Source: Streptomyces sp. TBY4 (GTDB lineage: Bacteria; Actinomycetota; Actinomycetes; Streptomycetales; Streptomycetaceae). Taken from it: a stretch of 64,000 nt of DNA. The translations under genes and the position numbers were made by a program. Numbering within the stretch: position 1 is the stretch's first letter; each line of letters begins with the position of its first letter. Where the stretch lies: assembly GCF_024213195.1 (NCBI RefSeq), contig NZ_JANAVF010000004.1, positions 372,001 to 436,000 of the forward strand, written 5' to 3'. Under the pieces are notes generated by a model, which worked only from the letters and a program-made list of their open reading frames with translations, ran no database searches and was not told the origin of the DNA. This document shows, in pieces, positions 44,373 through 61,378 of this stretch.

Positions 44373-45461
44373 GTGTCGCTCACGATCGGAATCGTCGGCC
44401 TGCCGAATGTCGGCAAGTCGACCCTGTTCAACGCCCTGACCAAGAACGACGTGCTGGCGGCCAACTACCCGTTCGCCACGATCGAGCCGAACGTCGGCGT
44501 CGTCGGCGTTCCGGACGCCCGCCTCGGCGTCCTGGCCGGCATCTTCGGCTCGCAGAAGCTCCTCCCGGCCACGGTCGACTTCGTCGACATCGCCGGCATC
44601 GTGCGCGGCGCGTCGGAGGGCGAGGGCCTCGGCAACAAGTTCCTCGCGAACATCCGCGAGTCGGACGCGATCTGCCAGGTCATCCGCGCCTTCAAGGACG
44701 AGAACGTCGTCCACGTCGACGGCAAGGTCTCGCCGAAGGACGACATCGAGACCATCAACACCGAGCTGATCCTCGCGGACCTCCAGTCCATCGAGAAGGC
44801 GGTGCCGCGCCTGACGAAGGAGTCCCGCCTCCAGAAGGAGAAGGTCGCGGTCCTGGCGGCCGTCGAGAAGGCCCAGAAGATCCTCGAAGCGGGCGACACC
44901 CTCTTCTCCCAGGGCATCGCCAAGGGCACGGAGCAGGGCGACCTCCTGCACGAGCTGCACCTCCTCACGGTCAAGCCGTTCCTCTACGTCTTCAACGTGG
45001 ACGAGGACGAGCTGACGGACGAGGCATTCAAGGCCGAGCAGAGCGCGCTGGTGGCCCCGGCCGAGGCGATCTTCCTGAACGCCAAGCTGGAGGCGGAGCT
45101 CATCGAGCTCGACGACGAGGAGGCGCTCGAGCTCCTCCAGTCGGTCGGCCAGGAGGAGCCCGGCATGGCCACCCTCGGCCGCGTCGGCTTCGACACCCTG
45201 GGCCTGCAGACCTACCTGACGGCCGGCCCGAAGGAAACCCGCGCCTGGACGATCAAGAAGGGCGCCACCGCCCCCGAGGCCGCCGGCGTGATCCACACGG
45301 ACTTCCAGCGCGGCTTCATCAAGGCGGAGATCATCTCCTTCGAGGACCTGGTCGCCTGCGGCTCGGTCGCCGAGGCCCGCGCCAAGGGCAAGGCCCGCAT
45401 GGAGGGCAAGGACTACGTCATGCAGGACGGCGACGTGGTGGAGTTCCGCTTCAACGTGTGA
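44373..45461 (+). CDS. ychF: redox-regulated ATPase YchF (Obg family)
   Basis: A 362-residue YchF. G1 is GLPNVGKST, G3 is FVDIAGIVRGAS, and the ATP-specific G4 variant NVDED replaces NKxD. A coiled-coil insertion (about 130-200) and a C-terminal TGS domain (RAWTIKKGATAPEAAGVIHTD) complete the family layout. It hydrolyses ATP rather than GTP and associates with ribosomes. The start is a GTG. A terminator follows at 45510-45545, and the mobile element begins directly after. Confidence 0.97.
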   Translation: MSLTIGIVGLPNVGKSTLFNALTKNDVLAANYPFATIEPNVGVVGVPDARLGVLAGIFGSQKLLPATVDFVDIAGIVRGASEGEGLGNKFLANIRESDAICQVIRAFKDENVVHVDGKVSPKDDIETINTELILADLQSIEKAVPRLTKESRLQKEKVAVLAAVEKAQKILEAGDTLFSQGIAKGTEQGDLLHELHLLTVKPFLYVFNVDEDELTDEAFKAEQSALVAPAEAIFLNAKLEAELIELDDEEALELLQSVGQEEPGMATLGRVGFDTLGLQTYLTAGPKETRAWTIKKGATAPEAAGVIHTDFQRGFIKAEIISFEDLVACGSVAEARAKGKARMEGKDYVMQDGDVVEFRFNV

Positions 45462-45546: not shown

Positions 45547-45635
45547 CACCGTGCTGGATAGGTGCTGGATAATCTGACACCTCATCACCCCTCACCACCC
45601 CTCGTCACCCGCACCGTGCTGGATCGGTGCTGGAT
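45547..45635. repeat. paired 24-bp direct repeats at the element's left end
   Basis: CACCGTGCTGGAT followed by RGGTGCTGGAT occurs at 45547-45570 and 45612-45635 (one mismatch in 24), each copy itself a doublet of GTGCTGGAT. The position next to the chromosome-element junction suggests arm-type integrase or excisionase sites. The rest of 45462-45715 holds the ychF terminator and no gene. Confidence 0.6.
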
Positions 45636-45715
45636 GGTGAAAGGACCCTTGGGGCGAGCAGAAGAGCCCCGGCTCTCTCCTCTCGGACGAGGGATGAGCA
45701 GGGGCTCCAGGGTGC

Positions 45716-46009
45716 TTACGGCTTTCGGTGTCGGCCCTTGCCGGGGGCTAGCGGCTGGTCCGCAGGGGCGCGCGCGGCAGCTGTCGGGGCGTTCGCCTCC
45801 GGGTACAGGATGAGTTTTGCCTCGGTCAGGTTGAGTGCGAACCCGTGAGGCTCCCAGGCGTGACCGTTCCACCGCTCGATAGCCCTCGGCGCAGCAGGGT
45901 TCACGTGCGAGCCATGGGGGTTGTCGCCAGAGGAGATCGAGACGGCCCGCAGCCGACCGATCTTCGCGTCCCGGCGCTCCGCCCACTCCGACAGGGATTC
46001 GTCGTCCAT
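45716..46009 (-). CDS. small hypothetical protein (DUF6087-like)
   Basis: A 97-residue protein beginning MDDESLSEWAERRDAKIGRL, with AIERWNGHAWEPHGFALNLT in the middle and a GKGRHRKP end. The pattern recalls the small DUF6087 proteins common near XRE regulators in Streptomyces. Hydrophilic, no motif of known function. It is 9 nt downstream of the MurF-like gene, on the same strand, and may be the last gene of that operon. Confidence 0.65.
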   Translation of the reverse strand: MDDESLSEWAERRDAKIGRLRAVSISSGDNPHGSHVNPAAPRAIERWNGHAWEPHGFALNLTEAKLILYPEANAPTAAARAPADQPLAPGKGRHRKP

Positions 46010-46018: not shown

Positions 46019-46375
46019 CTAGTGGCCTGAGATTCCCGTGACGGGCTGTCCTGTCAGTGCCTGGGCGACCTGCCAGAGCATCCCACCCCTTGACGCCTTC
46101 GTCAGAACGATGTCCCCCGGCTGGAGGACGGAATCGACGAAGGCCGCGGCGGTCGCGTTGTCGGCGACCATCGCCACGTCCGGCACGCCGGCCGCTCCGG
46201 CGGCAAGGGCGAGCTGCTGAGCCATCTCGCCTCCGACCGCTACAACCAGGTCAACGCCGTATTCCGCTGCCATACGGCCTACCTCACGGTGGGCCTCCAC
46301 GGCCTCGTCACCCAGCTCCAGCATCTCGCCCAGTACGGCGATGCGTCGCACGCCCCCGGTCTCGATCTCGGTCAT
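46019..46375 (-). CDS. free-standing MurF-like C-terminal domain
   Basis: A 118-residue protein matching only the last third of UDP-MurNAc-tripeptide:D-Ala-D-Ala ligase: RRIAVLGEMLELGDEAVEAH, then GVDLVVAVG and GDIVLTKASRGG near the end. The UDP-binding and ATP-binding domains are absent, so it cannot be a complete ligase. In MurF this domain positions the dipeptide and part of ATP. Its ATG overlaps the stop of the peptidase gene by 1 nt (TGATG), so it is maintained as an operon member rather than a random remnant. It may act with the Ddl-like protein or as a binding module. Confidence 0.75.
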   Translation of the reverse strand: MTEIETGGVRRIAVLGEMLELGDEAVEAHREVGRMAAEYGVDLVVAVGGEMAQQLALAAGAAGVPDVAMVADNATAAAFVDSVLQPGDIVLTKASRGGMLWQVAQALTGQPVTGISGH

Positions 46376-46923
46376 CAGGACTCTCCGTTGTGCACGAGGG
46401 GGGCGAAGGTGATGGCGCGACCCGTATAGGAAGCGGCCAGGCGACTAAGCGGAACTCGATCGTGCGTTTGCCCCCAAGCCGACGGGTCACGGAAGAGGAT
46501 CTGCGGATCGGGACCATCTTCGTAACCGCGAAGGATGATCAGGTGGCCGCCAGACCTCCCGTCTTCGGGAAGCTGCTCGGTCACGGAGACAATGAGCGGT
46601 GCGGAATCCATCCGGGCAAGCAGCCCCTCGACGGGGACGGGTTCAGCGACGGACTGCACTCCAAGGTCGTCAGCCAGGCTCGCAATCCCCGCGTGGAGCG
46701 CTCCACGCGGGGTGAGTACCTCGTGCTTGACCGCGAGCTTCAGGAGTTCCGTGACGGTGGGCGCATCCTGCCCATAGGCGAGCAGGATGGCCCTCAGTGA
46801 TGCCAGGCCGCACGCACGGTTGGACCATTCGATCCTGTCCCCGAGTGCCCATCCCCCATGGTGCGCCCATTCGGCGGGAGTGATGAGCTGTCGGCACAGG
46901 GGGACATCGTGGACGCGCGGCAC
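46375..46923 (-). CDS. papain-like C39-type cysteine peptidase
   Basis: About 182 residues. The catalytic Cys is in SNRACGLASLRAILLAYG (near residue 45), the His in GGHLIILRGYED (near 133) and an Asp/Asn partner in LFRDPSAW (near 150). This is the C39_2 arrangement of double-glycine-type or general papain-like peptidases, without membrane or ABC domains. I chose the GTG at 46923 because AGGAG lies 10 nt before it; longer starts would run deep into the ligase gene. It could process a peptide made by the operon, or cleave or transfer cell-wall peptides. Confidence 0.75.
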   Translation of the reverse strand: MPRVHDVPLCRQLITPAEWAHHGGWALGDRIEWSNRACGLASLRAILLAYGQDAPTVTELLKLAVKHEVLTPRGALHAGIASLADDLGVQSVAEPVPVEGLLARMDSAPLIVSVTEQLPEDGRSGGHLIILRGYEDGPDPQILFRDPSAWGQTHDRVPLSRLAASYTGRAITFAPLVHNGES

Positions 46924-46936
46924 AACGGCAGGGCTC

Positions 46937-48031
46937 CTACGGGGAGACGGCAGCCTCCCGAGTCGCCGTGCTGCCGGAGAACGCGGGAGAGGGCAGGGGG
47001 ACATCGTACGGCTGGCGGGTCAGGGCCTCGTGTAGGAGCGCCAGTACAACGTCGGTGTGTGTGAGCCCAACCATCGCGGCGCCGACCACGAAGTTGCTCT
47101 CTCGGGACATGCCCGGAGTGCTGTTGACCTCCAGCACGTACGGGTCGCCGGCCTCGGTGAGGATGAAGTCCACGCGAGCGGAGCCGCGGAGCCCAAGGCC
47201 GCTCCAGAGCGCGGTGGCGTGTTCGTTGATCTTGTCGAGCACCTCGGGTGTCAGCTCGGCGGCCCTGACTGCCACGCCGCCCTTCGAGTCCACATCGAGC
47301 TTGGTGTCGGCGTCGTAGAACTCCGCGTCGGTCGCCTCGGTGGCCAGCGGGGGGAACACGACCACGTTGCCGCCGGGCAGTTCCAGCATGCCGACGGTCA
47401 TCGGTACACCGGTCATGTACTCCTCGACGAGGATGTTGCTGCCTTCCTCGCCGGCCGCCTCTTCCAGGGCCATGGCGAGGTCCGCCTGCTCGCGGACCAG
47501 GCTCATGCCGACGCTCGACCCTCCGAAGGGCGGTTTGACCATGACGGGCCGCCCGTTCCACTGGGTCGCGCCACCGTCCGACCACACCCACCAACCCGGC
47601 GTGGGGACACCGAGGGTCAGCATGACCCGCTTGCACATGATCTTGTCGGCGGCCACGGCCGACGCTCCGACCCCGCTGCCGCAGTACGGCACGCGCATGT
47701 AGTCGAGCAGGCCTTGCAGGCGGCCGTCTTCACCGTAGGGCCCGTGGAGGTTGGAGAGCGCGACGTCGTACGTGGACAGCTCCAGGATGAAGTCGACCTC
47801 GCACGGGTTCAGCTCCTGCCAGGCAGCGCCGATCTCGTCCAACGCCCCGGCGAGCGCGGTCACGGATCGCTGGTCCACGGGGCACTTCGAGTGGTAGAGC
47901 CGGTCCTCGGCCGACACCGGGCCGTAGACCAGGGCGACCCTGAGCCCCTGGTGGTCGCGCTGCCACTCATGAAGGGCCGCGGTGGCCTCCTGCACGGCGG
48001 CTTCCGAGCTAGACGTGAGGAAGAGAGTCAT
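46937..48031 (-). CDS. D-alanine--D-alanine ligase family ATP-grasp enzyme
   Basis: A 364-residue protein with all Ddl landmarks: LHGPYGEDGRLQGLLDY, PYCGSGVGASAVAADK, the ATP-binding Lys in VKPPFGGSSVGMS, the Glu in LVEEYM and the metal loop RVDFILTE with EVNSTPGMS. It should ligate two amino acids with ATP, but the N-terminal about 70 residues differ from housekeeping Ddl, so the substrate may not be D-Ala. Its ATG overlaps the dapF stop (ATGA), with AAGGAG inside dapF. It is a second, mobile copy in addition to the expected chromosomal ddl. Confidence 0.9.
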   Translation of the reverse strand: MTLFLTSSSEAAVQEATAALHEWQRDHQGLRVALVYGPVSAEDRLYHSKCPVDQRSVTALAGALDEIGAAWQELNPCEVDFILELSTYDVALSNLHGPYGEDGRLQGLLDYMRVPYCGSGVGASAVAADKIMCKRVMLTLGVPTPGWWVWSDGGATQWNGRPVMVKPPFGGSSVGMSLVREQADLAMALEEAAGEEGSNILVEEYMTGVPMTVGMLELPGGNVVVFPPLATEATDAEFYDADTKLDVDSKGGVAVRAAELTPEVLDKINEHATALWSGLGLRGSARVDFILTEAGDPYVLEVNSTPGMSRESNFVVGAAMVGLTHTDVVLALLHEALTRQPYDVPLPSPAFSGSTATREAAVSP

Positions 48032-48828
48032 GCGAGTACTCCTTCGAAGGTGTTGGTGACCGGGCCTCCGACCCACTGCGTCTGCTCGGGTCGGTTGTTG
48101 TGGGAGCGGACCGTGAGCGGCTCGCCGGCACGGTTGTGGACCGTGACGGGGCGAGGGCCGACGAGCCCGCGCATCCTGGCGGCGACGACGGCGGCGACGG
48201 CTCCGCTGCCGCAGGACAGGGTTTCCTCTTCGACGCCACGCTCGTACGTCCGGATCTTCAGCTCCTGGTTGCCGAAGGGCTGGACGAAGTTGACGTTCGT
48301 CCCCAGCGGTGCGAGGGCCTTGTGGTGGCGTACGAGTCGTCCGATCAGTGCCGCGTCGACCGCGTCCACGTCGTCCACAATGGCGACGACGTGCTCGGTG
48401 CCGGTGTGCACGCTGTCGAACCAGGTCGGCTTGCCGTTGATCACGGCTTGCACGCGGCGCGGGTCGATCATGCCGACCTCGGCGGTGACCCACACGGAGT
48501 CGCCCGTGACGCTCGCCTCGTGCATGACCCCGGCCATGCGAAGACGCATCTCCTTGTATCCGTGGTCCTGCTGCGCGGCCCAGGCGGAGCACCGGAGGGC
48601 GTTGCCGCACATAGTGGCTACGGAGCCGTCCGCGTTGAAGCAGTCGACTTCCAGGACGGCCGGCTCATCACTGACCAGGCTGCTGATGACGAGCCCGTCT
48701 GCACCGACCCCGGTACGTCGGGCGCAGAGGCGTGCGGCTTCCTTCGGCCATTCCCGGTCGACAGCCGGCGAGAGGTCGGTGAGCAGTACGAAGTCGTTGC
48801 CTGCCCCGTGGACCTTGCGAAAGCGCAT
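48028..48828 (-). CDS. dapF: diaminopimelate epimerase family protein
   Basis: A 266-residue DapF-fold enzyme. Both active-site cysteines are present, in TMCGNALRC and in EETLSCGSGAVAA, the pair that epimerises LL- to meso-diaminopimelate without a cofactor. The N-terminal KVHGAGNDFVLLTD and the TGVGADGLV block are standard. The start is an ATG with AAGGAG before it. Core actinobacterial genomes have dapF elsewhere, so this element-borne copy next to a Ddl-like ligase is unusual and may act on another amino acid or a peptide. Confidence 0.92.
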   Translation of the reverse strand: MRFRKVHGAGNDFVLLTDLSPAVDREWPKEAARLCARRTGVGADGLVISSLVSDEPAVLEVDCFNADGSVATMCGNALRCSAWAAQQDHGYKEMRLRMAGVMHEASVTGDSVWVTAEVGMIDPRRVQAVINGKPTWFDSVHTGTEHVVAIVDDVDAVDAALIGRLVRHHKALAPLGTNVNFVQPFGNQELKIRTYERGVEEETLSCGSGAVAAVVAARMRGLVGPRPVTVHNRAGEPLTVRSHNNRPEQTQWVGGPVTNTFEGVLA

Positions 48829-48883
48829 GGCGAAGCTCCTTGCGGCTTGAGGTGAGGAAAGTGGTGCTGCGGGCGTGCGGTGA

Positions 48884-49132
48884 TCAGCGCGGGGTGAGAG
48901 GCCGGTAGACGGTCAGGGCCTTGCGCATGATCAGCGGTGCCCGTCCGGCGAAGTGCAAGATGCGGTGACCCGAGGTGCTGGCGGTCCTCATGTCCTGGAC
49001 CCGCTGGAAGCTGCCGTTGAGGTACAGGAAGTCGCCTACGCGGACATCGCTCGGCAGCGTGCTCGGATACGCGACGGTTCCGACCGGAGGAGTCGGCCTG
49101 GCCTGCGGCCCATGAATCCTGCGCTCGGGCAT
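48884..49132 (-). CDS. hypothetical protein, 82 residues
   Basis: A basic 82-residue protein with a Pro-rich head and a beta-rich core: DVRVGDFLYLNGSFQRVQDM and ILHFAGRAPLIMRKALTVYRP. The VRVGD-LNGSF-RVQDM pattern resembles small beta-barrels seen in phage and intein-like proteins. No cysteines. The ATG overlaps the stop of the small membrane gene (TAATG), and GGAG lies 5 nt before it. It could be a structural accessory or the substrate of the operon's enzymes; there is no direct evidence. Confidence 0.65.
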   Translation of the reverse strand: MPERRIHGPQARPTPPVGTVAYPSTLPSDVRVGDFLYLNGSFQRVQDMRTASTSGHRILHFAGRAPLIMRKALTVYRPLTPR

Positions 49133-49218
49133 TAGCTCCGCCAGATGGCGAACAGGAGGACGCCCCCGATGGCCAGGTAGGCGACGACGTAGGCGACTTG
49201 CTGATTTCGCGAGCTCAT
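49132..49218 (-). CDS. 28-residue single-span membrane peptide
   Basis: Starts with MSSRNQQVAYVVAYLAIGG and ends FAIWRS; residues about 8-25 are a hydrophobic span. The start overlaps the NUDIX stop by 4 nt (ATGA) and the stop overlaps the next start by 1 nt (TAATG), so the frame is fixed by coupling on both sides. This makes it a credible gene despite its size. Function unknown. Confidence 0.6.
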   Translation of the reverse strand: MSSRNQQVAYVVAYLAIGGVLLFAIWRS

Positions 49219-49757
49219 CGGGAGCCGATCAGGAGCCCTTCGAGGCGGCCGCGGAGGGCCGGTATGCCGACCTCATCGAAGGGCACCCAGGCCACCGCAC
49301 CCGTTTCGAGCATCGAGGGGAACACGGCGCCGGAGTGCGCGCGGAACAGGTAGCGGATGCCGACGCGGAGACGAGGGCCGTAAGGGTGCCGGCCTGCGGG
49401 CGTCACGTCGACCAGGAAGGGGCTCTCCCTGCCGGGCTCGGTCCACACGTCCCGGATGCCGGCCTCCTCTGCCAGCAGGCGGAGTGCGGCGTCACGCAGG
49501 GAGTCATCCTGATCCTCGGGCTCGGCCTCCGCGAGGGCGTAGTCGCCCCCGTGGCGCAAGCAGAGGACGCGCCCCCACTCGTCGACGATGACGGCCGCAG
49601 TCATCACGAGGGGGCAGCGCTGATCATGGGTGCACGTCCGGCGCCGTGAGTGATCCAGGGCCGCGTCGTACACCGGCATGATCGCCGTCTCCTCGGACGG
49701 GTGGGCCTGGAGGTAGCTGTGGAGCTCGCGGAGGATCTGGTCTTCCTCGACGCTCAT
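49215..49757 (-). CDS. NUDIX hydrolase-like protein
   Basis: A 180-residue protein. The NUDIX fold is recognisable from TAAVIVDEWGRVLCLRHGG and the box ending LRLLAEEAGI; the normal RE of the box is RL here, so one metal-binding Glu is missing while the EE pair is kept. The remaining sequence (RYLFRAHSG, VAWVPFDEV) fits the family. An N-terminal helical extension with CTHDQRC (two Cys and a His) could bind metal. It may hydrolyse a nucleotide-linked compound or be a binding protein. It overlaps both neighbours by 4 nt. Confidence 0.78.
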   Translation of the reverse strand: MSVEEDQILRELHSYLQAHPSEETAIMPVYDAALDHSRRRTCTHDQRCPLVMTAAVIVDEWGRVLCLRHGGDYALAEAEPEDQDDSLRDAALRLLAEEAGIRDVWTEPGRESPFLVDVTPAGRHPYGPRLRVGIRYLFRAHSGAVFPSMLETGAVAWVPFDEVGIPALRGRLEGLLIGSR

Positions 49758-50131
49758 GGCGCACCCAGCCCGTTGCGCTCGATGTAGATCCAGAGCAGCT
49801 GTCGCGTGAGGAGGGCTACGTCGCGAAGGTAGAGCCAGGCGCCAAAAGTCGGCGTGTTCTCGTTCGGCCGCTCCTGGTGCTCCATCAGGGCGCGGCCCTT
49901 GCGGGCGAGCTTCTGTACCTCGACGTCCTCAGCCGCCCCCAGGTCTTCGCCCAGCAAGACGTTCATGTGCTGGACGATGGCCGGCGTGACGGCGTCGATG
50001 TCCCCGCGGGTCGACGAGTGCAACTTCATGGAGAGCACTGCTTCAGTGCGTAAGGAGATGCTCTCGACATCAACGGAGAGCCGCTCGACCTCCGCCGTTT
50101 CGATTTCCTTGCCGGTACTTGCCAAAGCCAT
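49754..50131 (-). CDS. small helical hypothetical protein, first gene of the operon
   Basis: A 125-residue, largely helical protein with MKLHSSTRGDIDAVTPAIVQ in the middle and LWIYIERNGL near the end; it weakly recalls the DUF6415 family found near natural-product genes in Streptomyces. Residue 27 is encoded by TTA (50051-50053), the codon decoded by the bldA tRNA. Because later genes are coupled by overlaps, this codon could delay the whole operon. GGAGG lies upstream of the ATG, and two CTTGCC repeats overlap its first codons. Confidence 0.7.
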   Translation of the reverse strand: MALASTGKEIETAEVERLSVDVESISLRTEAVLSMKLHSSTRGDIDAVTPAIVQHMNVLLGEDLGAAEDVEVQKLARKGRALMEHQERPNENTPTFGAWLYLRDVALLTRQLLWIYIERNGLGAP

Positions 50132-50285: not shown

Positions 50286-51128
50286 TCAGTGGAACGATTC
50301 GATAGCGGTGGTGATTATTTCTCGCGCAGCCGAGCCGAAGACAGCCATCTCGTAGAGTTCGGCGAAAGTCTGTGCGTACATGCGGAGTTCATGCTCCTGC
50401 TCCACGGTGAGGTGGGCCGAAACCAGCTCGACCTTGACCGTGCGGTCATCGAACATGAAGAATCCCTCGACCGGCATGAGCGAGCGCTCGACGTCACGGG
50501 GGATGATTCCGATGACCACTCTCGGCAGGGCCATGACGCTCAGCAGATAGCCGAGTTGGCCCACCATCACGTCCGTTCCGCCCATGCGGTTGTAGAGGGC
50601 ACTTTCCTCCAACAGGATGGCGAATGTGCGCTGCGTATATACGATCTTCTGCTTCTCAAGGCGAACCTCAACAGCCGCATCAACGTCGTCGGTCGTGTTG
50701 CGACGGTCGCGGATGGAGGTAAGCAAGGCCTTGATGTAGGACGCTGTCTGCACAGGGCCGGGGATCAGCCACGGAGAGTAGAACCGAAACTGCTGGGTTC
50801 TGTCCCAGAGGGGAAGGGCTGATTGCTGGGCCTGCTTTAGCCCGTTACCTTCCAACTGCTGCCACTGGATATACATGCCTTCGATGCGGCGAGCAGTCCG
50901 GACGAGGTTCTCTGCTTCCTCCTCAACACCGCACGCGGCGCACCAATCACGAAGATCGCGCTCCGAGGGCGCCCGTGTGGCGCTCTCGAAACGCGATGCC
51001 TTCGACTCGTGCCACCCCAGCCTCTCTGAAAGGGCTCGTTTGGTCAGCCCGGCCGCTACCCGGACTTCTGCGAGCCTCTTCCCGAGCGCCTTGCGCGCTT
51101 CCTGCGCGCTCGAAGATGCCGGTTCCAT
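50286..51128 (-). CDS. XRE-family regulator with DUF5753 domain (Scr1-like)
   Basis: A 280-residue regulator. The N-terminal helix-turn-helix (about 15-72) reads LAEVRVAAGLTKRALSERLG and HESKASRFESATRAP. The C-terminal DUF5753 domain (about 100-275) includes the WLIPGPVQTASYIKALL and VEVRLEKQKI blocks and an LLEESALY motif typical of Scr1-type proteins. These regulators normally pair with a small partner and control nearby or developmental genes. It is the third gene of a unit with the 89-residue and DUF6879 proteins. CTTGCC arrays lie at both ends of this unit, making it the prime candidate to bind them. Confidence 0.92.
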   Translation of the reverse strand: MEPASSSAQEARKALGKRLAEVRVAAGLTKRALSERLGWHESKASRFESATRAPSERDLRDWCAACGVEEEAENLVRTARRIEGMYIQWQQLEGNGLKQAQQSALPLWDRTQQFRFYSPWLIPGPVQTASYIKALLTSIRDRRNTTDDVDAAVEVRLEKQKIVYTQRTFAILLEESALYNRMGGTDVMVGQLGYLLSVMALPRVVIGIIPRDVERSLMPVEGFFMFDDRTVKVELVSAHLTVEQEHELRMYAQTFAELYEMAVFGSAAREIITTAIESFH

Positions 51129-51152: not shown

Positions 51153-51665
51153 TCAGCGGATTCGGAACTCGGCGTGCGGGATCGCCCTGCTCCAGACGGA
51201 CTCGAAGGCATCCTCACAGAGCTTTGCGAGCTCCGGATCTTCGGTGATCTCGGGCTCTGTGGGCTCGCCTTCCCCATCGAAGTGGTTCAGGTACACCAGC
51301 CCGGAATCGAACAGCCAGAAGTCGTTCGCCGGCACAAGCAGGTCGGAAGCCTCCCGACGAGGAAGCCAACCAACCTGCTCGCCTGCGGCGATGTTCAGCC
51401 CCTCCGTGACCTCATGCTCAAAGCGGATGTACTCACTCGCGGGCATCGACACGATGCGGGCTCGACGTACTACGACGCCTCGCGAGACCGCTTCCGAGAC
51501 GATGGAGTGCCAGGCTGACCACCGCTCGGCCGGATCGATCGGCCTGCCGGCCTTCCAGTCGACGAAAGTCGAGTGCGTCTTGCTGTACGCGTCCCGGCTC
51601 TCCAGGTGAACGGCCGTCCGCTGGGTGCCGCCGAACAGGTCCTTAAACGTCGGGGGACTCGACAC
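51153..51665 (-). CDS. DUF6879 family protein
   Basis: A 170-residue acidic protein with RTAVHLESRDAY, a VRRARIVSMPASEYIRFEHE block and WLPRREASDLLVPANDFWLF, the pattern of the small proteins (DUF6879) encoded next to Scr1-type XRE regulators in Streptomyces. It is probably the functional partner of the regulator downstream. The start is a GTG within the end of the 89-residue gene (23-nt overlap), with AGGAGAAGG just before it. Confidence 0.82.
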   Translation of the reverse strand: MSSPPTFKDLFGGTQRTAVHLESRDAYSKTHSTFVDWKAGRPIDPAERWSAWHSIVSEAVSRGVVVRRARIVSMPASEYIRFEHEVTEGLNIAAGEQVGWLPRREASDLLVPANDFWLFDSGLVYLNHFDGEGEPTEPEITEDPELAKLCEDAFESVWSRAIPHAEFRIR

Positions 51666-51912
51666 CCTTCTCCTCCTCCGGCTCGGCGCCCTTGGGGCCG
51701 ACCTCCCTGTCGGCTTCCAGGAAGAACTGCACCATATAGCGGGGGATCTCGACCGCCCCCTCGTGCGGAGGGAGCTTCAGCTGCTTGAGTCGCTCTTCGT
51801 CCACAACGTTGTACCCCTGGACGAGGTACCTGTCCGTCTCCTCGTCCAAGTAGATCGTGGGCGAGTTGCCGTCAGGGCTGTTCGGGTCCTTACCGAGCAT
51901 GCGCAGGGCCAT
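51643..51912 (-). CDS. hypothetical protein, 89 residues
   Basis: A small acidic protein: TIYLDEETDRYLVQGYNVVD, then LKLPPHEGAVEIPRYMVQFF and an EEEK-rich tail. The first block looks like a short beta-meander. It is first in the unit with DUF6879 and the XRE regulator. GGAGGAGG lies 6 nt before the ATG. No function is known; its place matches the small DUF397-type partners in other Scr1 loci, but the sequence is different. Confidence 0.75.
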   Translation of the reverse strand: MALRMLGKDPNSPDGNSPTIYLDEETDRYLVQGYNVVDEERLKQLKLPPHEGAVEIPRYMVQFFLEADREVGPKGAEPEEEKGVESPDV

Positions 51913-52110: not shown

Positions 52111-52497
52111 TTAGGCCGCGCCCTCCGACACTTCGTCGTAGCCGTCCACATATTCATGGCCGTTCAGCCAGGCTGCCAGCTTCCCCACCCCTCGCTCGCA
52201 CCGGTACCGCGCTGCTCTTCCGGTCACGCCTTGGAGGGCGCCAGCCTCGTCATCATGGATGTCCGCGCCGTAGCGAAGGATCAGGGCCTGGCGCTCGCCG
52301 AGCGAGAGCGGCGCTGTCATCCACGCATGCCGAATGTCGGCGAGGTGGGCGAACAGGATTCCCGCGGCCTTCTTATCAACAGTGCCCTTGGGCATGTCCG
52401 CGTCGGGTGCCTGGAGGTTTCGGATGCCGTACGCAGCCTCTACGTCCCAGACGGCCGGCAGGAGGTGCTCAACGAGCCGCCGGTCGTAGCCGCTCAC
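52111..52497 (-). CDS. sigma-70 region 4-like helix-turn-helix protein
   Basis: A 128-residue protein. Residues about 65-115 (LSLGERQALILRYGADIHDD, then ALQGVTGRAARYRCERG) look like region 4 of a sigma-70 factor: a helix, a turn with an acidic pair, and a recognition helix with basic residues. It is coupled to the preceding region 2-like protein by a GTGA overlap. It may be half of a two-part sigma factor or a late-gene activator of the phage. Confidence 0.6.
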   Translation of the reverse strand: MSGYDRRLVEHLLPAVWDVEAAYGIRNLQAPDADMPKGTVDKKAAGILFAHLADIRHAWMTAPLSLGERQALILRYGADIHDDEAGALQGVTGRAARYRCERGVGKLAAWLNGHEYVDGYDEVSEGAA

Positions 52498-52841
52498 CGC
52501 TCGGCCCTCCCGGCCGCTTGCTGGGCGGCCTCGTACGAGGTGTGGCCGACGCGGTGCCGGGCCTCGGTGAGCCAGCGGTCCCGGAGGCGCTGCGACAGCC
52601 AGCGATGAAGCAGGCCGGGGCCGGACTCGGAGAGGAGGCGTCGAACGTCGGGAGACCGCTCGGCGCAGACGAGGACGGCCTCTTGGAAGGCGTCGTCGTA
52701 CTCCAGGGTCAGTCCGTAGTCGCGAGCGAAGCCGCGGGCCACGGCCTTGGCCACGCTGTCGACCTGCGGCTCGGCAAGCACGGACCAGTCGACTGCTGTA
52801 GGGGCTTCGGCTGATTCGAGATCGGCGAGACTCAGGCTCAT
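52494..52841 (-). CDS. sigma-70 region 2-like protein
   Basis: A 115-residue protein. The segment LEYDDAFQEAVLVCAER followed by LLHRWLSQRLRDRWLTEARHR resembles sigma-70 region 2 (DDxxQE helix, then the basic helix that binds the -10 element). There is no region 4. Its stop overlaps the start of the region 4-like gene, and its own ATG overlaps the phosphoesterase stop (ATGA). Confidence 0.55.
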   Translation of the reverse strand: MSLSLADLESAEAPTAVDWSVLAEPQVDSVAKAVARGFARDYGLTLEYDDAFQEAVLVCAERSPDVRRLLSESGPGLLHRWLSQRLRDRWLTEARHRVGHTSYEAAQQAAGRAER

Positions 52842-54031
52842 CGGACCACCTCCTTGACCGGCACCTGGCCATCCTTGGTCACCATGACCGTCAGGCCGGG
52901 TGCCCCGACCGTGCCGGTGCGGTGGCGCCACCACGTCGACTCGGACTCCATGGCCGGCACCTGGACGAACGTCCGGGGGCCGTCGGTGTCGATCAGTTCG
53001 TGGTGGAGATGTCCAGCCAGGAGCAGATCAGCCGTGTGCATGGCGGACGCCTTGTTGAAGGACTGGCCCTTCCACCATTCGAAGTGACGGCCGGCACGCC
53101 ACTGATGACCGTGGGCGTGTGCCACCACGGTGCCCGAGCAGTCCACGACGACCGTGAGTTCGTCCGAGTCCGGCACGTAGATCTCGACGTGGGCGAAGTC
53201 TCGGCCAGCGAGCGCCAGGGCCTCACTGACGGAGATCAGGGCCTCTGTGTCGTGGGAGTCGTCATACCGGGTCACGCCCTTGCCGCCTGGCCGTACGGCC
53301 TCACCGTGATTGCCGGGTACGGCCACGACCGTGAGGCGGGAGACGAGGGGTGCAAGCTTCACGATGGCGTAGGCCATCAGGCGGCGAGTAAGGCGGATCT
53401 GCTCGGTCAGGGTGAGCGGGGTCCTCCACACGTTCGCGCCCCCCTGGGACACGAAACCTTCGACGTGATCGCCGAGCCAGGCGAGGTGTACGTGGTCGAT
53501 GGTAAAGCGCTTGCGGTACTCGGAGAGCAGCACGGCAGCTCGGTCGATGCACTCCATCGACCGGCGGAGGGTGCCTTCCGGGCCATCGCCGTCGGCCTTG
53601 CCGAACTGCATGTCGCCAAGGGCGATGACGTAGCTCCACTCACCCTCGGCGCGCTCGGCCAAGCGTACGGGCGGGGTGTAGTTGTCGAAGACCGCGAGCA
53701 GCTCGTCGAGGCTGGGCCGTTCGGCCACGCTGCTCTTGCGCCGACCGAAGTTGAAGCGTGCGGAGACGCCGGTCTCGCCGCCCGGCATCGTCCACTCAGA
53801 CGACCGGAATGCCGTGACCTCCCATTCGGCTGGGTCGAGCTGGTGTGCGCGAAGTACGTCGGCCGCCGTCGATTCGGGGTCGATGCCCTGAGGGCCACGC
53901 ACCGTGACCTCCGCCGCGTCTCCGGCCAGCTCGATCCGTCGGGTGAAGTCCCGTTCGGGGTCGACCTGGCGGGCCGGGAGAGAGGGGCCTACGGGCTTGG
54001 AGAGGAGTTCATCAAGCAGGGTGTCGCTCAA
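52838..54031 (-). CDS. calcineurin-like metallophosphoesterase
   Basis: About 397 residues. The catalytic domain (about 135-375) has IALGDMQFGKADG, HLAWLGDHVEGF, VAVPGNHGEA and the late LLAGHLHHELID with VAHAHGHQWRAG, which supply the Asp, Asn and His metal ligands. The first 130 residues include a beta-rich region of unknown role. Phages of Streptomyces often carry such an enzyme in the replication module, where it may act on nucleic acid ends. The start appears to be a TTG (LSDTLLDELL), just inside the end of the preceding gene. Confidence 0.82.
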   Translation of the reverse strand: MSDTLLDELLSKPVGPSLPARQVDPERDFTRRIELAGDAAEVTVRGPQGIDPESTAADVLRAHQLDPAEWEVTAFRSSEWTMPGGETGVSARFNFGRRKSSVAERPSLDELLAVFDNYTPPVRLAERAEGEWSYVIALGDMQFGKADGDGPEGTLRRSMECIDRAAVLLSEYRKRFTIDHVHLAWLGDHVEGFVSQGGANVWRTPLTLTEQIRLTRRLMAYAIVKLAPLVSRLTVVAVPGNHGEAVRPGGKGVTRYDDSHDTEALISVSEALALAGRDFAHVEIYVPDSDELTVVVDCSGTVVAHAHGHQWRAGRHFEWWKGQSFNKASAMHTADLLLAGHLHHELIDTDGPRTFVQVPAMESESTWWRHRTGTVGAPGLTVMVTKDGQVPVKEVVR

Positions 54032-54245
54032 GGGGGGTCGCCCCTTCCTGGCGCAAGAGGCGCCGGTAGGTACGGATGGTTGAAGCGGAGACCGGGTGCC
54101 CGTGTCGGTGGAGAATCCCGACGAGTTCCTCGGCCGCCGTGTCCTGGAGGAGGTGTCGCTCGAAGGCTTCGCGCTCGCGGCCTTCCAGGGCTTCCCAGAT
54201 CGCAAGCAGGCGGGGGCCGGGGCGTCCCGGCAAAGGGCTCTTCAT
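54012..54245 (-). CDS. small helix-turn-helix protein
   Basis: A 77-residue protein. AEELVGILHRHGHPVSASTI followed by RTYRRLLRQ looks like a helix-turn-helix of the type found in phage DNA-binding proteins. The ATG at 54245 overlaps the stop of the next upstream gene by 4 nt, and its end overlaps the phosphoesterase gene by about 20 nt. Target unknown. Confidence 0.65.
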   Translation of the reverse strand: MKSPLPGRPGPRLLAIWEALEGREREAFERHLLQDTAAEELVGILHRHGHPVSASTIRTYRRLLRQEGATPLERHPA

Positions 54246-54592
54246 GCGGGTTCCTGGTCGAGCTGTTCGACGGCGGCCGTTGCCAGTGCGGCCACCTGGA
54301 TAAGTCCGGAGCGGGCGGTCACCGTGTCCGCTGAGGCGATGGCTGTATTGAGTGCGGCCAGGAGCTCGGCGTCCCAACCGGGGTGGTCGGCCAGTGAGCG
54401 GGCGAAGGCGATTTCGGCCCAGCGATCGGCTTCCCGGCGGTAGTGCAGTCGGGCGCGGTCGGGCCGGAGCCCTCCGCCCAGTGGGCGGCCCTCGTCGGGG
54501 AGCACCTTGCGCTCGGCCCTCACCTCGGCCAGCACTGCGGCGGTCGGGTCTAGCCTGCGGGGCTGTCGCTTCACGGTGGTCTTCTCGGTCAC
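54242..54592 (-). CDS. phage hypothetical protein, 116 residues
   Basis: A basic N-terminus (VKRQPRRLDPTAAVLAEVRA) is followed by YRREADRWAEIAFARSLADH and an Ala-rich helical end. No recognised domain. It starts with a GTG overlapping the Toprim gene stop (GTGA) and ends 4 nt inside the next gene. The position, between primase and other replication genes, suggests an accessory role. Confidence 0.6.
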   Translation of the reverse strand: MTEKTTVKRQPRRLDPTAAVLAEVRAERKVLPDEGRPLGGGLRPDRARLHYRREADRWAEIAFARSLADHPGWDAELLAALNTAIASADTVTARSGLIQVAALATAAVEQLDQEPA

Positions 54593-55257
54593 TTGGCCTT
54601 CTCCTCTGCGAGCAGGTCGTATAGGGCTTGGGCGCCTCCGGCCTTGTAGGTCTCGGTCACGTCGCCAACGTGTAGTCGGACGCCCGCAGCGGAGCGCAGA
54701 GACCGGGTGACCTTGGCGGTGAGGCGGGCGCCGGCATCGTCCGGGTCGGACCACACCCAGACGCGGGAGAAGCCCGCGAGCATGCGGCGGTGCCGGCCGA
54801 AGAACATCTCGACGCCGGGAGCACCTGCGGAGTGCCAGCCGATCTTCCGGAGGATGATCCGGTCGAGTTCGCCTTCGCCGAGGTGGATCTCCTCCCCGGC
54901 CTGGTGGATGGAGTCGACGCCGTAGATCCTCGGAGGGTCGCCGGGCATCGTGTTGTACTTGCCGTGCCCCAGGGCCCGGTGGTCGTGCTCCTCCAAGCAC
55001 CGGAAGCGGATGGTCACGGTGTGCCCGTCGTGGGCGAGGTAGGGGATGGCTAGCATTCCGCGGTAGCGGCCGTGGCCGGGCAGGGGGTCAGTGACGACGC
55101 CAAGCCGGTACGTATCCACCTCCTCCTCGCCGATCCCTCGATCGGCCAGGTACCGGGCGGCGTCCGCCGTAAGAGCTGCCTGATAGGTGCTCGTCGCCTC
55201 CTCCAGCATCGTCCGCTGGGAGGCCGAGAGAGGCCGCAAGGGTTCGCGCTCCGACAA
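54589..55257 (-). CDS. Toprim-domain primase subunit
   Basis: A 222-residue protein. ALTADAARYLADRGIGEEEV and YRGMLAIPYLAHDG are typical of the region after the zinc finger in DnaG-like phage primases. The Toprim domain (about 120-220) has the catalytic Glu in HLGEGELDRI and the metal-binding VWVWSDPDDAG. The TTG start at 55257 lies inside the zinc-finger gene in a different frame, a 170-nt overlap. Together the two would make one primase. Confidence 0.8.
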   Translation of the reverse strand: MSEREPLRPLSASQRTMLEEATSTYQAALTADAARYLADRGIGEEEVDTYRLGVVTDPLPGHGRYRGMLAIPYLAHDGHTVTIRFRCLEEHDHRALGHGKYNTMPGDPPRIYGVDSIHQAGEEIHLGEGELDRIILRKIGWHSAGAPGVEMFFGRHRRMLAGFSRVWVWSDPDDAGARLTAKVTRSLRSAAGVRLHVGDVTETYKAGGAQALYDLLAEEKAK

Positions 55258-55495
55258 AGCTGGTGCTCTCCTTCTGCATGATCAACGTGTATGAATCGCC
55301 GCCCTGGCCGCAGCTATGGCACTTCCACAGGCCCTTGTTCTCGTCCACCGAGCACGAGGGGGTGCGGTCCTCGTGCAAGGGGCACGCGACCATGCCGGTT
55401 CGGGTCATCGAGACCCCGTAGTGCTCCAAGACGGCCACCAGGTCGGGCCTCGGCTGATCTCCGTCGTCATGCCGGCCGATGTCGCGGAGTCTCAT
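55088..55495 (-). CDS. CHC2-type zinc-finger primase subunit
   Basis: A 135-residue protein. The zinc site is ACPLHEDRTPSC followed by KCHSCGQGG, the C-x2-H...C-x2-C pattern of DnaG primases, preceded by DLVAVLEHYGVSM. The C-terminal 40 residues are Gly/Arg-rich and end in YVPAWRRH, resembling the tail of stand-alone zinc-finger proteins of actinophages. The last 170 nt overlap the Toprim gene in another frame. Confidence 0.82.
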   Translation of the reverse strand: MRLRDIGRHDDGDQPRPDLVAVLEHYGVSMTRTGMVACPLHEDRTPSCSVDENKGLWKCHSCGQGGDSYTLIMQKESTSFVGARTLAASLGLPADDAGGGDEHLSGSSYGGRRPVPGRSRDRRGGGGYVPAWRRH

Positions 55496-55635
55496 GCGAC
55501 CCTCCGTCCACGGAAGTGGGCGGCGTGCCTGTCCCACCCCAGGTCGTCGAGGCCATCCGGCTCCGGCTCACCCAGCAGGTCGGCAAGCTCACGGGCGAGA
55601 CGACGATGCTCGGCCACCTCCTCGAACTGCCTCAT
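55492..55635 (-). CDS. small hypothetical protein, 47 residues
   Basis: Begins MRQFEEVAEHRRLARELADL, strongly helical, then LGWDRHAAHFRGRR. It overlaps both neighbours by 4 nt (ATGA on each side), which fixes the frame and supports it being translated. Unknown function. Confidence 0.55.
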   Translation of the reverse strand: MRQFEEVAEHRRLARELADLLGEPEPDGLDDLGWDRHAAHFRGRRVA

Positions 55636-56015
55636 CGGTCGGCCTCGCCCGGGAGGCCGAAATACTCGGCAACCGTCGTGAGTACGTAGGCCTCCCGCCA
55701 ACTCGCCCCACGGCGGCGGACGATGGCCACCGCATCAACGTCTGCTGGGGCCAGTCCACGATGGCGGGCGTAGTTGTCCCGCTCGCGCTGGGCCTCACGT
55801 ACGAACACGCTGGGCTTGAAGGTGGCGTTCTTCGCCTCGATGATGAGAGGGCGCCCGCCAGGCCGCCGGACGATGTGATCGCCTTCGTCGTCCTTGCCGG
55901 TGAGGCGGAGGCGCTCGATGTCGAAGCCTGCTTCCCGAAGGCGATCTCGAAGCTCGGACTCCCAGTCGGCTCCTCGCCGCCGGTTCCGGCGGTTTCGCGC
56001 TGCTACGTCAGTCAA
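55632..56015 (-). CDS. Holliday-junction-resolvase-like / VRR-NUC-like nuclease
   Basis: A 127-residue protein of the PD-(D/E)XK type: ADWESELRDRLREAGFDIER has the first Glu, KDDEGDHIVRRPGGRPL the Asp, and IIEAKNATFK the E-x-K. This matches small phage resolvases and restriction-like nucleases. The start is a TTG. It sits between the helicase and primase genes of the replication module. Confidence 0.78.
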   Translation of the reverse strand: MTDVAARNRRNRRRGADWESELRDRLREAGFDIERLRLTGKDDEGDHIVRRPGGRPLIIEAKNATFKPSVFVREAQRERDNYARHRGLAPADVDAVAIVRRRGASWREAYVLTTVAEYFGLPGEADR

Positions 56016-56027
56016 CTCTTACATTCC

Positions 56028-56867
56028 TCACTGTTTCAGGGCGTCGAGAGGGGACCACTGACGTGGTGCGAGCGCGGAGAACCGGGTGATGTCCGGGTGG
56101 CAGCGCAGGGTGGCGTACCGGCGTGCTGTCGGATCGGAGGGCCCCATGCGTTGCTTGATCACGGCGATCCGGTATTCGAGGCTGGACGGGTCCAGTGCGA
56201 CGGAGAGTGACAGCTCCGGTTTCTCGGACAATCCGCCCTTGACTTGATCACGCGACGGTGGCGCCCATGGGTCGCTCTTGGCCTCCCACGACTTGTCGGA
56301 GGCGTGGTGCAGGACAATCACCGTCGCGCCAGTAGCGCGAGCCAGCTCCGTCAGGCCCGACATCACGGCCATCTGCTCCGTGTAGTCCGACTCCGCGTTC
56401 TCGAAGTCCATCAAGTTGTCGAACACCAGGACTTCCGGATAGGCGTCCCAGAGTTCGATGTACGCCTCCAGCTCCTCATCGACGTTCTTCCAGGTGATCG
56501 GGCTACCGAACGAGAACGTGATGCGTGAGCCCGCAAGGGCGGTTAGGTACTCCTCGCGGTGCCGGCCGCCTGCCGCCATGCCCGCCTCGACCATCTCGGT
56601 CGTGTCGCCCGTCGCCATGCTCGCCAGGCGTGAGGAGGCGGTGAAGGCGGACATGTCCGCCGAGAAGTACAGGGTCGGCAAGTTCATCTGGGCGACCCAG
56701 AAGAGGGCCAGGCCCGACTTCTGGGTGCCGGATCGGCCCGCGATCATGATGACCTCGCCCTGGCGTGGGCGGCAGCCGAGGTTGTAGAGGGCCTCGAACG
56801 CGGCAATGCGGGGGAGTTCGCGGCCCGCTTCGGCATGGAGGGTCAGGGACCGTCCAGGGGTGAGCAC
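56028..56867 (-). CDS. RecA/DnaB-like phage replicative ATPase
   Basis: A 279-residue RepA/DnaB-type helicase core. Walker A is IAGRSGTQKSGLAL near residue 45, Walker B is VLVFDNLMDFEN near 133, and TVIVLHHASDKSW with an Arg/Lys-rich RIAVIKQRMGP completes the fold. There is no N-terminal primase or DnaB domain. The start is a GTG with GGAG 9 nt upstream. Confidence 0.85.
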   Translation of the reverse strand: MLTPGRSLTLHAEAGRELPRIAAFEALYNLGCRPRQGEVIMIAGRSGTQKSGLALFWVAQMNLPTLYFSADMSAFTASSRLASMATGDTTEMVEAGMAAGGRHREEYLTALAGSRITFSFGSPITWKNVDEELEAYIELWDAYPEVLVFDNLMDFENAESDYTEQMAVMSGLTELARATGATVIVLHHASDKSWEAKSDPWAPPSRDQVKGGLSEKPELSLSVALDPSSLEYRIAVIKQRMGPSDPTARRYATLRCHPDITRFSALAPRQWSPLDALKQ

Positions 56868-56891
56868 TCGGTCGGCTCCAATCGTGAAGGG

Positions 56892-56921
56892 GGAGGGGGC
56901 GACGGCGAGGCCGCCCCCTCC
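56892..56921 (-). terminator. hairpin ahead of the helicase gene
   Basis: Perfect 10-bp stem GGAGGGGGCG / CGCCCCCTCC with a 10-nt loop, between the 145-residue gene and the helicase gene. It may reduce read-through. Confidence 0.65.
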
Positions 56922-56935
56922 TGCTGGCCGATGCG

Positions 56936-57373
56936 TCAGTCGAAGGTGGGCGCTGCGGTCACCGCGGCCTCGACGGCCTTGTCGCGCTGCTCGGCGTAGG
57001 CGATGACCTGGGCCCGGATCGCCGGATCGTTGACCTGCCGCCACACCCACGCGGGGTGCGCGCCGGGCTTCGTGGGCGGCACCTGGGCGACGGTGACGAG
57101 GACGGCGCTGTCGACCATCGTCTCCAGATCGCGGGCCAGGACGGTCTGCTCGATTCGCATCCCCTTCGAGACCTCGGGTGTCAGCGCAGAGAGCTGCTCC
57201 GGGGTCCGGAAGACGGATACGTCACAAAGTGCGCTGTCCTTGGGGCCGTTGGGGGTGGGGCGCTGTCGCTCCCACGCCGAGACCTCGACGAGGATGGCGA
57301 CGGAGTCGGCCACTTCCTTCGGCTTGAACCAACCGCCGGCCTGCGTCGGGATGCTCTTGAGGTTCAGGGTCAC
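56936..57373 (-). CDS. phage hypothetical protein, 145 residues (possible ssDNA-binding)
   Basis: A 145-residue protein beginning MTLNLKSIPTQAGGWFKPKE, with VAILVEVSAWERQRPTPNGPK and ALCDVSVFR. The beta-rich pattern and position between helicase and RecB-like nuclease recall single-strand-binding proteins in actinophages, but I see no decisive motif. The GTG start overlaps the stop of a 38-residue frame by 1 nt. Confidence 0.6.
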   Translation of the reverse strand: MTLNLKSIPTQAGGWFKPKEVADSVAILVEVSAWERQRPTPNGPKDSALCDVSVFRTPEQLSALTPEVSKGMRIEQTVLARDLETMVDSAVLVTVAQVPPTKPGAHPAWVWRQVNDPAIRAQVIAYAEQRDKAVEAAVTAAPTFD

Positions 57374-57917: not shown

Positions 57918-57971
57918 CGCTGCTCCCTTCACGCGGTCCGGGGACCTCCCCCGGTGCGTAGTTACACTCTA

Positions 57972-58901: not shown

Positions 58902-58917
58902 ATCGGGCTCCAAGTGG

Positions 58918-60460: not shown

Positions 60461-60519
60461 CATCGATCTCTAAGTCTGCACTTCGCACAGGCGCAGACTT
60501 GAGACCACAGGTATTCGCG

Positions 60520-60549: not shown

Positions 60550-60563
60550 GTTCAGGGGAAGCA

Positions 60564-61346: not shown

Positions 61347-61378
61347 GGCGCCTCCGCGGCCAACCTGGGCGAAAAGCA

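Follow-up and report, generated by a model that had tools for sequence, protein, structure and literature searches.

What might a set of genes resembling steps of peptidoglycan synthesis be doing on a mobile element, in the company of a cysteine peptidase and a membrane peptide of 28 residues? The question is raised by the 64,000-nucleotide stretch of Streptomyces sp. TBY4 analysed here (contig NZ_JANAVF010000004.1, positions 372,001 to 436,000; hereafter the window, whose own numbering is used throughout), in which eight minus-strand genes lie between 46019 and 50131. An initial annotation, made from the letters alone, read them as a tight mobile operon for making or altering a peptide, and the open reading frames (ORFs) and junctions agree with its description: five overlaps of 1-4 nt (4 nt for hel/NUDIX-like, NUDIX-like/tm28 and dapF/ddl; 1 nt for tm28/p82 and c39/murFc) and two gaps, of 55 nt for p82/dapF and 13 nt for ddl/c39, c39 beginning with a GTG at 46923. 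The eight genes are real, but they are the 3' part of a larger unit of eleven that starts at 51912, in which p89, the DUF6879 gene and the XRE/DUF5753 gene travel along. As to its role, gene content and sequence comparison lead us to put at about one in two the probability that this unit, which we will refer to as the cassette, is a mobile van-like operon that would reprogram the cytoplasmic peptidoglycan precursor, with a non-standard D,D-dipeptide for the stem. Its genes are given below; the counts refer to the 38 cassette loci described in the next paragraph, and "intact" denotes a script's length and coverage criterion.

51643..51912, minus strand: p89, small ORF, first gene of the unit; present in 38/38, intact in 30/38
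51153..51665, minus strand: DUF6879 protein (p170); Pfam DUF6879 6.8e-53; intact in 38/38, its presence being a selection criterion
50286..51128, minus strand: XRE/DUF5753 transcriptional regulator; Pfam DUF5753 4.5e-30 and HTH_31 3.4e-13; intact in 38/38
49754..50131, minus strand: hel, small helical protein; without Pfam family; intact in 32/38
49215..49757, minus strand: NUDIX-like protein with altered Nudix box; Pfam NUDIX 4.6e-5; intact in 30/38
49132..49218, minus strand: tm28, 28-residue peptide with one membrane span predicted from sequence; without Pfam family; intact in 27/38
48884..49132, minus strand: p82, 82-residue protein; without Pfam family; intact in 27/38
48028..48828, minus strand: DapF-type epimerase; TIGR00652, Pfam DAP_epimerase 1.7e-37; intact in 36/38
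46937..48031, minus strand: Ddl-type ATP-grasp ligase with an apparently rebuilt second-substrate pocket; Pfam Dala_Dala_lig_C 4e-33; intact in 35/38, its presence being a selection criterion
46375..46923, minus strand: C39-type papain-like cysteine peptidase, GTG start, 182 residues; Pfam Peptidase_C39_2 1e-7, above cut-off
46019..46375, minus strand: murFc, isolated MurF C-terminal domain; Pfam Mur_ligase_C 2.3e-10; intact in 37/38

Conservation was sampled in 392 genus genomes and 84,980 species genomes, with plasmid and viral records added. Of the 392 genus genomes, 19, the window's own among them, have a C39 match that covers nearly the full protein at 79% identity or more, and 53 have any C39 match at E 0.001. 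The scan of the species genomes gave 41 C39 loci, mostly in Streptomyces, the other genera being Planomonospora, Actinacidiphila, Spongiactinospora, Nocardia and Kitasatospora; once identical copies had been merged and plasmid and viral matches added, 57 non-redundant loci were obtained, within which the matches of genome G590, by position the two Planomonospora loci, are counted. The cassette set comprises 38 of these 57, picked by the presence of p170, ddl and c39, which inflates the counts for those three. Its members repeat the order p89-DUF6879-XRE/DUF5753-hel-NUDIX-like-tm28-p82-dapF-ddl-c39-murFc, some with losses; all eleven genes are intact in 19/38 and all four enzymes in 34/38. Because the whole order recurs in other species, the unit is not a chance arrangement, and the idea of the initial annotation that the gene set should return in other actinobacteria with its order and small ORFs kept is borne out (tm28 has exactly 28 residues in 11 of the 12 loci where it was found, and 59 in the twelfth). 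Furthermore, median ratios of nonsynonymous to synonymous substitution (dN/dS) lie between 0.15 and 0.42 across all eleven genes, indicative of purifying selection (c39 0.18, murFc 0.17, dapF 0.21, ddl 0.25, tm28 0.28; eight diverged loci were left out, and the pairs are not independent). Given these low ratios, even the orphan MurF domain and the 28-residue peptide appear to be under constraint.

Small genes are nonetheless damaged in part of the loci with four intact enzymes: in 12 of these 34, at least one of hel, NUDIX-like, tm28 and p82 is lost or broken, with varying breakpoints that in some cases join frames, e.g., hel or NUDIX-like fused to the tail of tm28. The latter is repeatedly deleted or frameshifted (L038/L065, L039, L042/L068, L048, L063, L074, L081 and others) and the enzymes mostly stay; the small membrane part looks costly or dispensable. 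In the scoring, tm28 counted as absent in L063, which has a frameshifted form, and also in L086, although a diverged copy is readable there and may be kept. Deletions are not confined to the small genes, since L159 and L160 keep p89 to p82 without the enzymes, and L161-L163 keep pieces of this front part, likewise without enzymes. The XRE/DUF5753 regulator of L087, scored intact, consists of two overlapping pieces.

What kind of peptidase, then, belongs to this set? In the C39 protein, Cys38, His127 and Gln12 are found in 23/23 aligned rows; Asp146 gives way to Asn in the family-2 rows and is otherwise kept. The catalytic Cys/His/Asp is accompanied by a papain-like fold in a model of the homologue from L098 (63% identity to the window protein), in which the peptidase and the MurF domain form one ORF of 288 residues; in L101, the C-terminal half of C39 is joined to the MurF domain, and the C39 start is out of frame. 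The AlphaFold model of L098 has an overall predicted local distance difference test score of 83.9, with a confident C39 domain (blocks mostly above 90) and a weaker MurF-like domain; given a predicted template modelling (TM) score of 0.68 and at most two alignment rows on the second domain, the placement of the domains relative to each other is not interpreted. Foldseek placed the first domain with the PCAT/ComA C39 domains (best E 4.6e-7, TM score by target 0.79) and the second with MurF 4qdi (E 1.6e-3). By sequence, the C39 protein gave nothing relevant among solved structures and no match to any NCBIfam model. A full-length MurF follows C39 in four loci (L091, L093, L096, L105), L094 having an N-terminal part of it. 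The set of DapF, Ddl, C39 and full-length MurF is complete in L093 and L096, without the front part, and in L091 and L105 the Ddl is damaged.

The epimerase and the ligase both depart from their housekeeping counterparts. The window DapF scores 192.8 bits with TIGR00652, above the diaminopimelate epimerase cut-off of 114.65, and both active cysteines, reported as kept in the initial annotation, are indeed found in 42/42 aligned rows. The canonical substrate motif of diaminopimelate epimerase is GNPH, as in the host copy; the cassette proteins instead have GTEH in 41/42 rows and GTDH in the remaining one. Identity as an O-ureidoserine racemase was considered for this protein and rejected, as the racemase 7vdy reaches 76.6 bits with the window DapF profile, below most solved DapFs (up to 113.8 bits). 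The window Ddl lies below the NCBIfam Ddl cut-offs (195.0 vs 243 and 192.0 vs 245.65 bits) and below that of every van- or Ddl-type model among the 25 of 56 listed, including NF000206 for D-alanyl-D-lactate (D-Ala-D-Lac) ligase (111.9 vs 550) and the D-Ala-D-Ser ligase model (127.6 vs 520). None of the 28 aligned cassette Ddls, which come from three families, has the Tyr of the AKY motif (L, I, R or H instead), and their PG(M/L) loop has Asn following Ser, Gly or Ala, against Met following Ser in the housekeeping copy. We take these positions to be Tyr216 and Leu282 of E. coli DdlB, lining the second D-Ala site; the pocket change should accordingly be expected to alter the product, and not drug binding alone. 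In a tree, 15 cassette Ddls stand apart from the host Ddl and VanA with support of 100/99, though with only two outgroup rows. Extra copies elsewhere in the genome (Ddl and DapF, 38% and 41% identical to those of the window, and a full MurF on another contig) fit the housekeeping roles better, which disposes of the view that dapF and ddl are the sole copies and simply serve normal wall synthesis. Finally, the Nudix hydrolase box is GX5EX7REUXEEXGU; the alteration initially noted in the NUDIX-like protein is seen across 12 orthologues, in which the first Glu of REUXEE is Leu and the last is variable, and this protein probably binds rather than hydrolyses.

The genes that accompany C39 outside the cassette were compared as well. 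In each of the 10 plasmid records with a C39 match at E 1e-5, the peptidase gene adjoins Ddl, a Mur ligase, a pyridoxal phosphate (PLP) enzyme or remnants of these (neighbours taken from annotation, and in one unannotated record from tblastn), and in the nine plasmid Ddl records considered, out of 11 at 45% identity or more, C39 adjoins Ddl or its remnant in every case (9/9). The commonest plasmid relative has the arrangement MurF-Ddl-PLP threonine/serine-dehydratase-like enzyme-C39 (L108, L109, L187, L188, L189, L191, L192; L108 and L189 list the same protein accessions); five of these (L109, L187, L188, L191 and L192) have one more Mur ligase, of MurC type by NCBIfam in L109 (298.2 bits vs 335.1) and by annotation only in the others. 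The C39 proteins of L190-L193 are 54-90% identical to that of L108; L190, on a Nonomuraea plasmid, has Ddl, PLP enzyme, peptidase and M55 D-aminopeptidase (M55 1.2e-88) in succession, its peptidase being 54% identical to the L108 C39 and, at 22.6 bits, just under the Pfam C39_2 cut-off of 24. On the linear plasmid of L191 (NZ_CP122459.1), the set Ddl-PLP enzyme-C39-MurF-Mur ligase occupies 6959-12503 and a phage portal gene is present; this is perhaps a phage-plasmid.

Nine C39-family loci outside the cassette were considered in a class-wide sample (L167-L175; four weaker matches were left out), and Ddl or MurF lies beside three of them (L168, L171, L174). In L171, a murFc with 63% identity to that of the window comes after a diverged Ddl and C39. 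In L174, from genome G497 of another family, C39 lies near vanH-vanA-vanX, MurF, FemX-like and MurG-like genes (VanA 611.8 bits vs cut-off 550, VanH 513.3 vs 540, VanX as M15 1.1e-61; the MurG-like glycosyltransferase is supported by Pfam). In L057 and L058, Ddl and C39 occur together with an MFS-type gene and genes for a FemAB-like and an ATP-grasp protein; L057 has in addition a VanX-like protein (44.5 bits vs 320) and an alanine racemase. The PALP enzyme, searched for in 394 class genomes at E 1e-90, yielded a single match, which had no Ddl beside it. L175, on the host's own contig C54 near 347625-348143, is another C39-family gene of the host, and its neighbours include no obvious wall gene.

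How could these parts work together? According to PMC8698665, VanA makes D-Ala-D-Lac, VanX removes D-Ala-D-Ala and MurF installs the new dipeptide, and the pdx operon of Micromonosporales is described as PALP, Ddl and VanX, its authors suggesting precursor remodelling as a proposal only. Since pdx combines PALP, Ddl and VanX, and the plasmid families combine PALP, Ddl and C39, the latter appears to stand at the place of VanX; a PALP gene beside Ddl is seen in the plasmid relatives only, the window having DapF instead. In the proposed scheme, DapF would supply a D-configured (or meso) amino acid X, Ddl would join D-Ala to X, and D-Ala-X would be built into the UDP-MurNAc pentapeptide by MurF, either that of the host or, where it is whole, that of the cassette. 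C39, for which murFc would recognise the D,D-dipeptide end, would remove the normal D-Ala-D-Ala, as VanX does; the XRE/DUF5753 regulator, the DUF6879 protein and the NUDIX-like protein would sense and regulate, and tm28 and p82 would be accessory. What the element's host would gain is tolerance to agents acting on D-Ala-D-Ala, by binding or by processing it, and with this an edge over rivals or other phages. The gene company of C39, its presence in L174, the pdx parallel, the L098 fusion and the full MurF of L093/L096 are consistent with this scheme, as are the Ddl pocket and tree, the separate housekeeping ddl, dapF and murF, and the purifying selection on the four enzymes.

Several observations weigh against precursor reprogramming. 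The ORF list and the Pfam and NCBIfam scans place no VanH, VanX or VanRS in the unit, nor is a two-component pair of VanRS type among the gene calls neighbouring it, the control gene being XRE/DUF5753. The MurF protein of the window has Mur_ligase_C only, without Mur_ligase and Mur_ligase_M (ATPase), i.e., this lineage has a MurF devoid of the ATPase and nucleotide-binding domains. C39-MurF(c) is kept in L098, L101 and L105, each with a Ddl tail only, and a Ddl-dependent scheme therefore leaves these loci unexplained; as L098 and L101 also have no dapF, the C39-MurFc fusions come from decayed cassettes. L059 has C39 without any Ddl match, and in the class-wide sample L169 has a class I/II aminotransferase beside C39 and L167, L170, L172, L173 and L175 nothing obvious. 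Hosts of the cassette include genera with LL-diaminopimelate (DAP) as well as meso-DAP in their walls, from which it follows that DapF is not simply supplying wall DAP. Last, as set out below, a similar front part precedes graspetide and HemB/HemC genes, and so is not specific to wall genes.

The rival explanation that survives best is a minimal biosynthetic cluster, in which DapF would racemise, Ddl would make a D-containing dipeptide and C39, with murFc holding the dipeptide, would transfer or trim it, resulting in a diffusible peptide, signal or antibiotic. L164 (genome G334, 7876-12899) lies in a prophage that belongs to the family of the window's own (seven early proteins 50-82% identical) and has, in front of a graspetide cluster (TIGR04187 422.6 bits), a NUDIX-like protein (37%), a 30-residue membrane peptide and a p82-like protein (41%), which suggests that cargo is swapped behind one regulatory chassis. 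In L165 (genome G312, about 3881-9943), genes for a NUDIX-like protein (32%) and a membrane peptide precede HemB and two HemC, and a relaxase gene is close by. In both, the helical gene of the front part was recognised by position only. A front part common to other cargo keeps the small-molecule explanation alive, and other loci favour it as well: in L062/L185, PALP and C39 genes accompany DapF-like, oxidoreductase, aminotransferase and cyclodeaminase genes, L057 has an ATP-grasp protein of L-amino-acid-ligase type and the MFS-type gene (the latter by reading), and the plasmid cassette L187 (NZ_CP108821.1, 5895-14910; Ddl-PLP enzyme-C39-MurF-Mur ligase) lies a few hundred bases from a tgmABC graspetide set. 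The reduction of the window MurF to a non-catalytic domain fits too. Yet no transporter or tailoring enzyme was seen inside the cassette, some relatives keep a full MurF and even MurC-type ligases, which act on UDP-MurNAc, and the C39 gene is also found in a vanHAX cluster; we consider a diffusible product unlikely, if far from negligible. In the DapF-like protein of L062 (14335-15279), both active-site cysteine positions are altered or missing in the alignment; the oxidoreductase of this plasmid cluster is of the molybdopterin type.

Between its own two ideas, a modified stem peptide and a small diffusible peptide, the initial annotation had left the choice open, and the former is the better supported, the relatives of C39 lying with MurF, MurC-type ligases, Ddl, a PLP enzyme, M55 or vanHAX. 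Protection against phage lysins, one of the benefits it had proposed for such a stem, is less supported, because the lysin of the prophage that carries the cassette is itself an amidase. Amidase lysins are not known to cut at the stem terminus.

This prophage, of about 53.7 kb, is inserted in the 3' end of ychF, with the operon as cargo at its left end, and defines the surroundings of the cassette:

45443..45459, no strand: left attachment repeat, 17 bp, containing the ychF 3' end; second copy at 99193, beyond the window
45610..45636, no strand: 27-bp direct repeat, inferred as a possible integrase arm site; second copy at 99119
45716..46009, minus strand: DUF6087 gene, downstream, of uncertain membership in the unit; Pfam DUF6087 6.1e-33
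52111..64000, no strand: remaining prophage in the window, early-type genes and amidase lysin; carrier, not operon

In a related genome whose site is empty, the alignment of the left flank ends at 45465 and that of the right flank begins at 99223, the two lying 43 bases apart there; the position of the operon at the left end of the prophage follows from this site together with the 17-bp repeats. Beyond the window come, by reading, minus-strand tail- and head-type genes, then plus-strand genes up to a tyrosine integrase, then chromosomal-type genes. Portal, integrase and amidase lysin are confirmed by Pfam, and the tape-measure, capsid and terminase candidates gave no Pfam match above cut-off, "siphovirus" being a label by reading only. 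The DUF6087 gene recurs in related loci (68% in L079 and L104, a partial 44% match in L074). Between the early genes and the lysin, on the opposite strand to the cassette, 59510-61346 holds a quinone-oxidoreductase-like gene (by reading) and a second gene, a pair that is possibly a second cargo.

Mobility, asserted at the outset for this operon, is thus documented by the two ends of the prophage and the empty site; further copies occur on plasmids, on an IMG/VR contig and close to relaxase-type genes. A relaxase-cluster gene is present in the fetched flank of 15/38 cassette loci, upstream in 14 and downstream in L086 (one member of the cluster, checked by Pfam, is MobA/VirD2-like), and the same phage early genes lie upstream in 6/38. 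The IMG/VR contig carries one cassette copy, and core versions are found on Streptomyces plasmids. Neither C39 nor the NUDIX-like protein was found in 50,697 phage records at E 1e-3, and the latter gave no match in plasmid records at E 1e-8; Ddl-type matches occur in 19 phage records, all below 60% identity.

Carriage by a prophage and the vicinity of relaxase-type genes also suit a second rival, defence or superinfection exclusion, by which a wall change or a peptide made on infection would block other phages or conjugation partners. A gene for a cyclic-oligonucleotide-based anti-phage signalling system (CBASS)-type oligonucleotide cyclase directly follows murFc at L043 (3832-4728) and L045/L072 (3842-4738 in L045), a relaxase gene being present in both L043 and L045, and the plasmid cassettes L108 and L189, which list the same protein accessions, have a NACHT gene in their vicinity. 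To this explanation we give a small probability: PADLOC, run on the cassette proteins, gave only weak helix-turn-helix matches of the regulator and one weak hel match (E 0.046), on which ground a known anti-phage system was rejected, and an amidase lysin such as that of the prophage is not obviously blocked by a new stem terminus. With PHROGs, the sole strong match was the regulator (E 5e-38; Ddl 3e-4, hel 0.006). Quite improbable is the proposal that DapF and Ddl are spare, drug-insensitive copies of the targets of an antimetabolite such as D-cycloserine: both are paralogues of housekeeping enzymes, and HemB/HemC paralogues stand behind the similar front part of L165, but the altered Ddl pocket should change the product rather than drug binding alone, C39 and murFc would be unneeded for such a role and are yet well kept, and the DapF profile ranks the racemase of the cycloserine pathway (76.6 bits) under the best solved DapFs. 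That ordinary wall-gene duplicates were caught on a prophage without joint function has next to no probability, for the decaying loci that would favour it (L054/L088, L055, L056, L060, L066, L097, L100, L102, L103, a few cut by contig ends) are set against a fixed order in unrelated elements, purifying selection and a common pocket change, the conserved order and the constraint already contradicting it.

Returning to precursor reprogramming, a more specific version is possible, with doubt prevailing: that the cassette represents an undescribed class in which a PLP-independent epimerase, an Asn-pocket Ddl and a cysteine peptidase that has taken up MurF's dipeptide-binding domain replace VanH, VanA and VanX, creating a terminus other than D-Ala, D-Lac or D-Ser, and that it is spread by phages, relaxase elements and linear plasmids swapping cargo behind a shared regulatory front part. 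If the van-like reading were right, precursor rewriting would not be confined to van operons: soil actinomycetes would have a version of it on temperate phages and mobilisable elements, with a cysteine peptidase playing the part of VanX beside an orphan MurF domain. The predictions would be a new stem terminus and tolerance to D-Ala-D-Ala-directed agents. The cassette could also constitute a reservoir that van-gene surveys might miss, because the Ddl falls under the cut-offs (among the 25 of 56 models listed) and C39 is without an NCBIfam match.

How close, finally, are the known systems? The D-cycloserine pathway includes DcsC, a DapF-like racemase, and DcsI, which is Ddl-like, and has thus in common with the cassette the presence of both types in one cluster; to our knowledge, it has no C39 or MurF. 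VanC, VanE and VanG are D-Ala-D-Ser type operons with the VanT racemase, and share the logic of racemase, ligase and peptidase, the cassette having DapF and no PLP serine racemase. The C39 leader peptidases of PCAT/ComA have the same fold and Cys/His/Asp site as the cassette peptidase; the latter is not fused to an ABC transporter (182 residues alone) but linked or fused to a MurF domain, and no double-glycine precursor was noticed near it, no search having been aimed at one. The vanHAX clusters of actinomycetes, with murF and vanK, resemble the cassette in having a Ddl-type ligase of their own with a peptidase next to it, in some cases an additional MurF, and mobility in some taxa (PMC8698665); in the cassette, by contrast, DapF takes the place of the lactate dehydrogenase, C39 that of the M15 metallopeptidase, a MurF domain that of MurF, and XRE/DUF5753 that of VanRS. 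The pdx operon, known here by description (PMC8698665), has a dehydratase/racemase-like gene, a Ddl-like gene and a peptidase, like the cassette, and its PALP-type gene with Ddl recurs in the plasmid relatives L108, L109, L188, L191 and L192; it differs by its VanX-like peptidase and VanRS, where the cassette has C39, MurF and other regulators. Literature judged by title and abstract contained no description of this exact gene combination, so that the initial annotation's statement that it knew of no such described system holds for the combination itself, but not for its logic, to which the van operons and pdx (PMC8698665) come close. The earlier interpretation is, in this sense, partly supported, and the system would be one of precursor reprogramming, a kind already known from the van operons.

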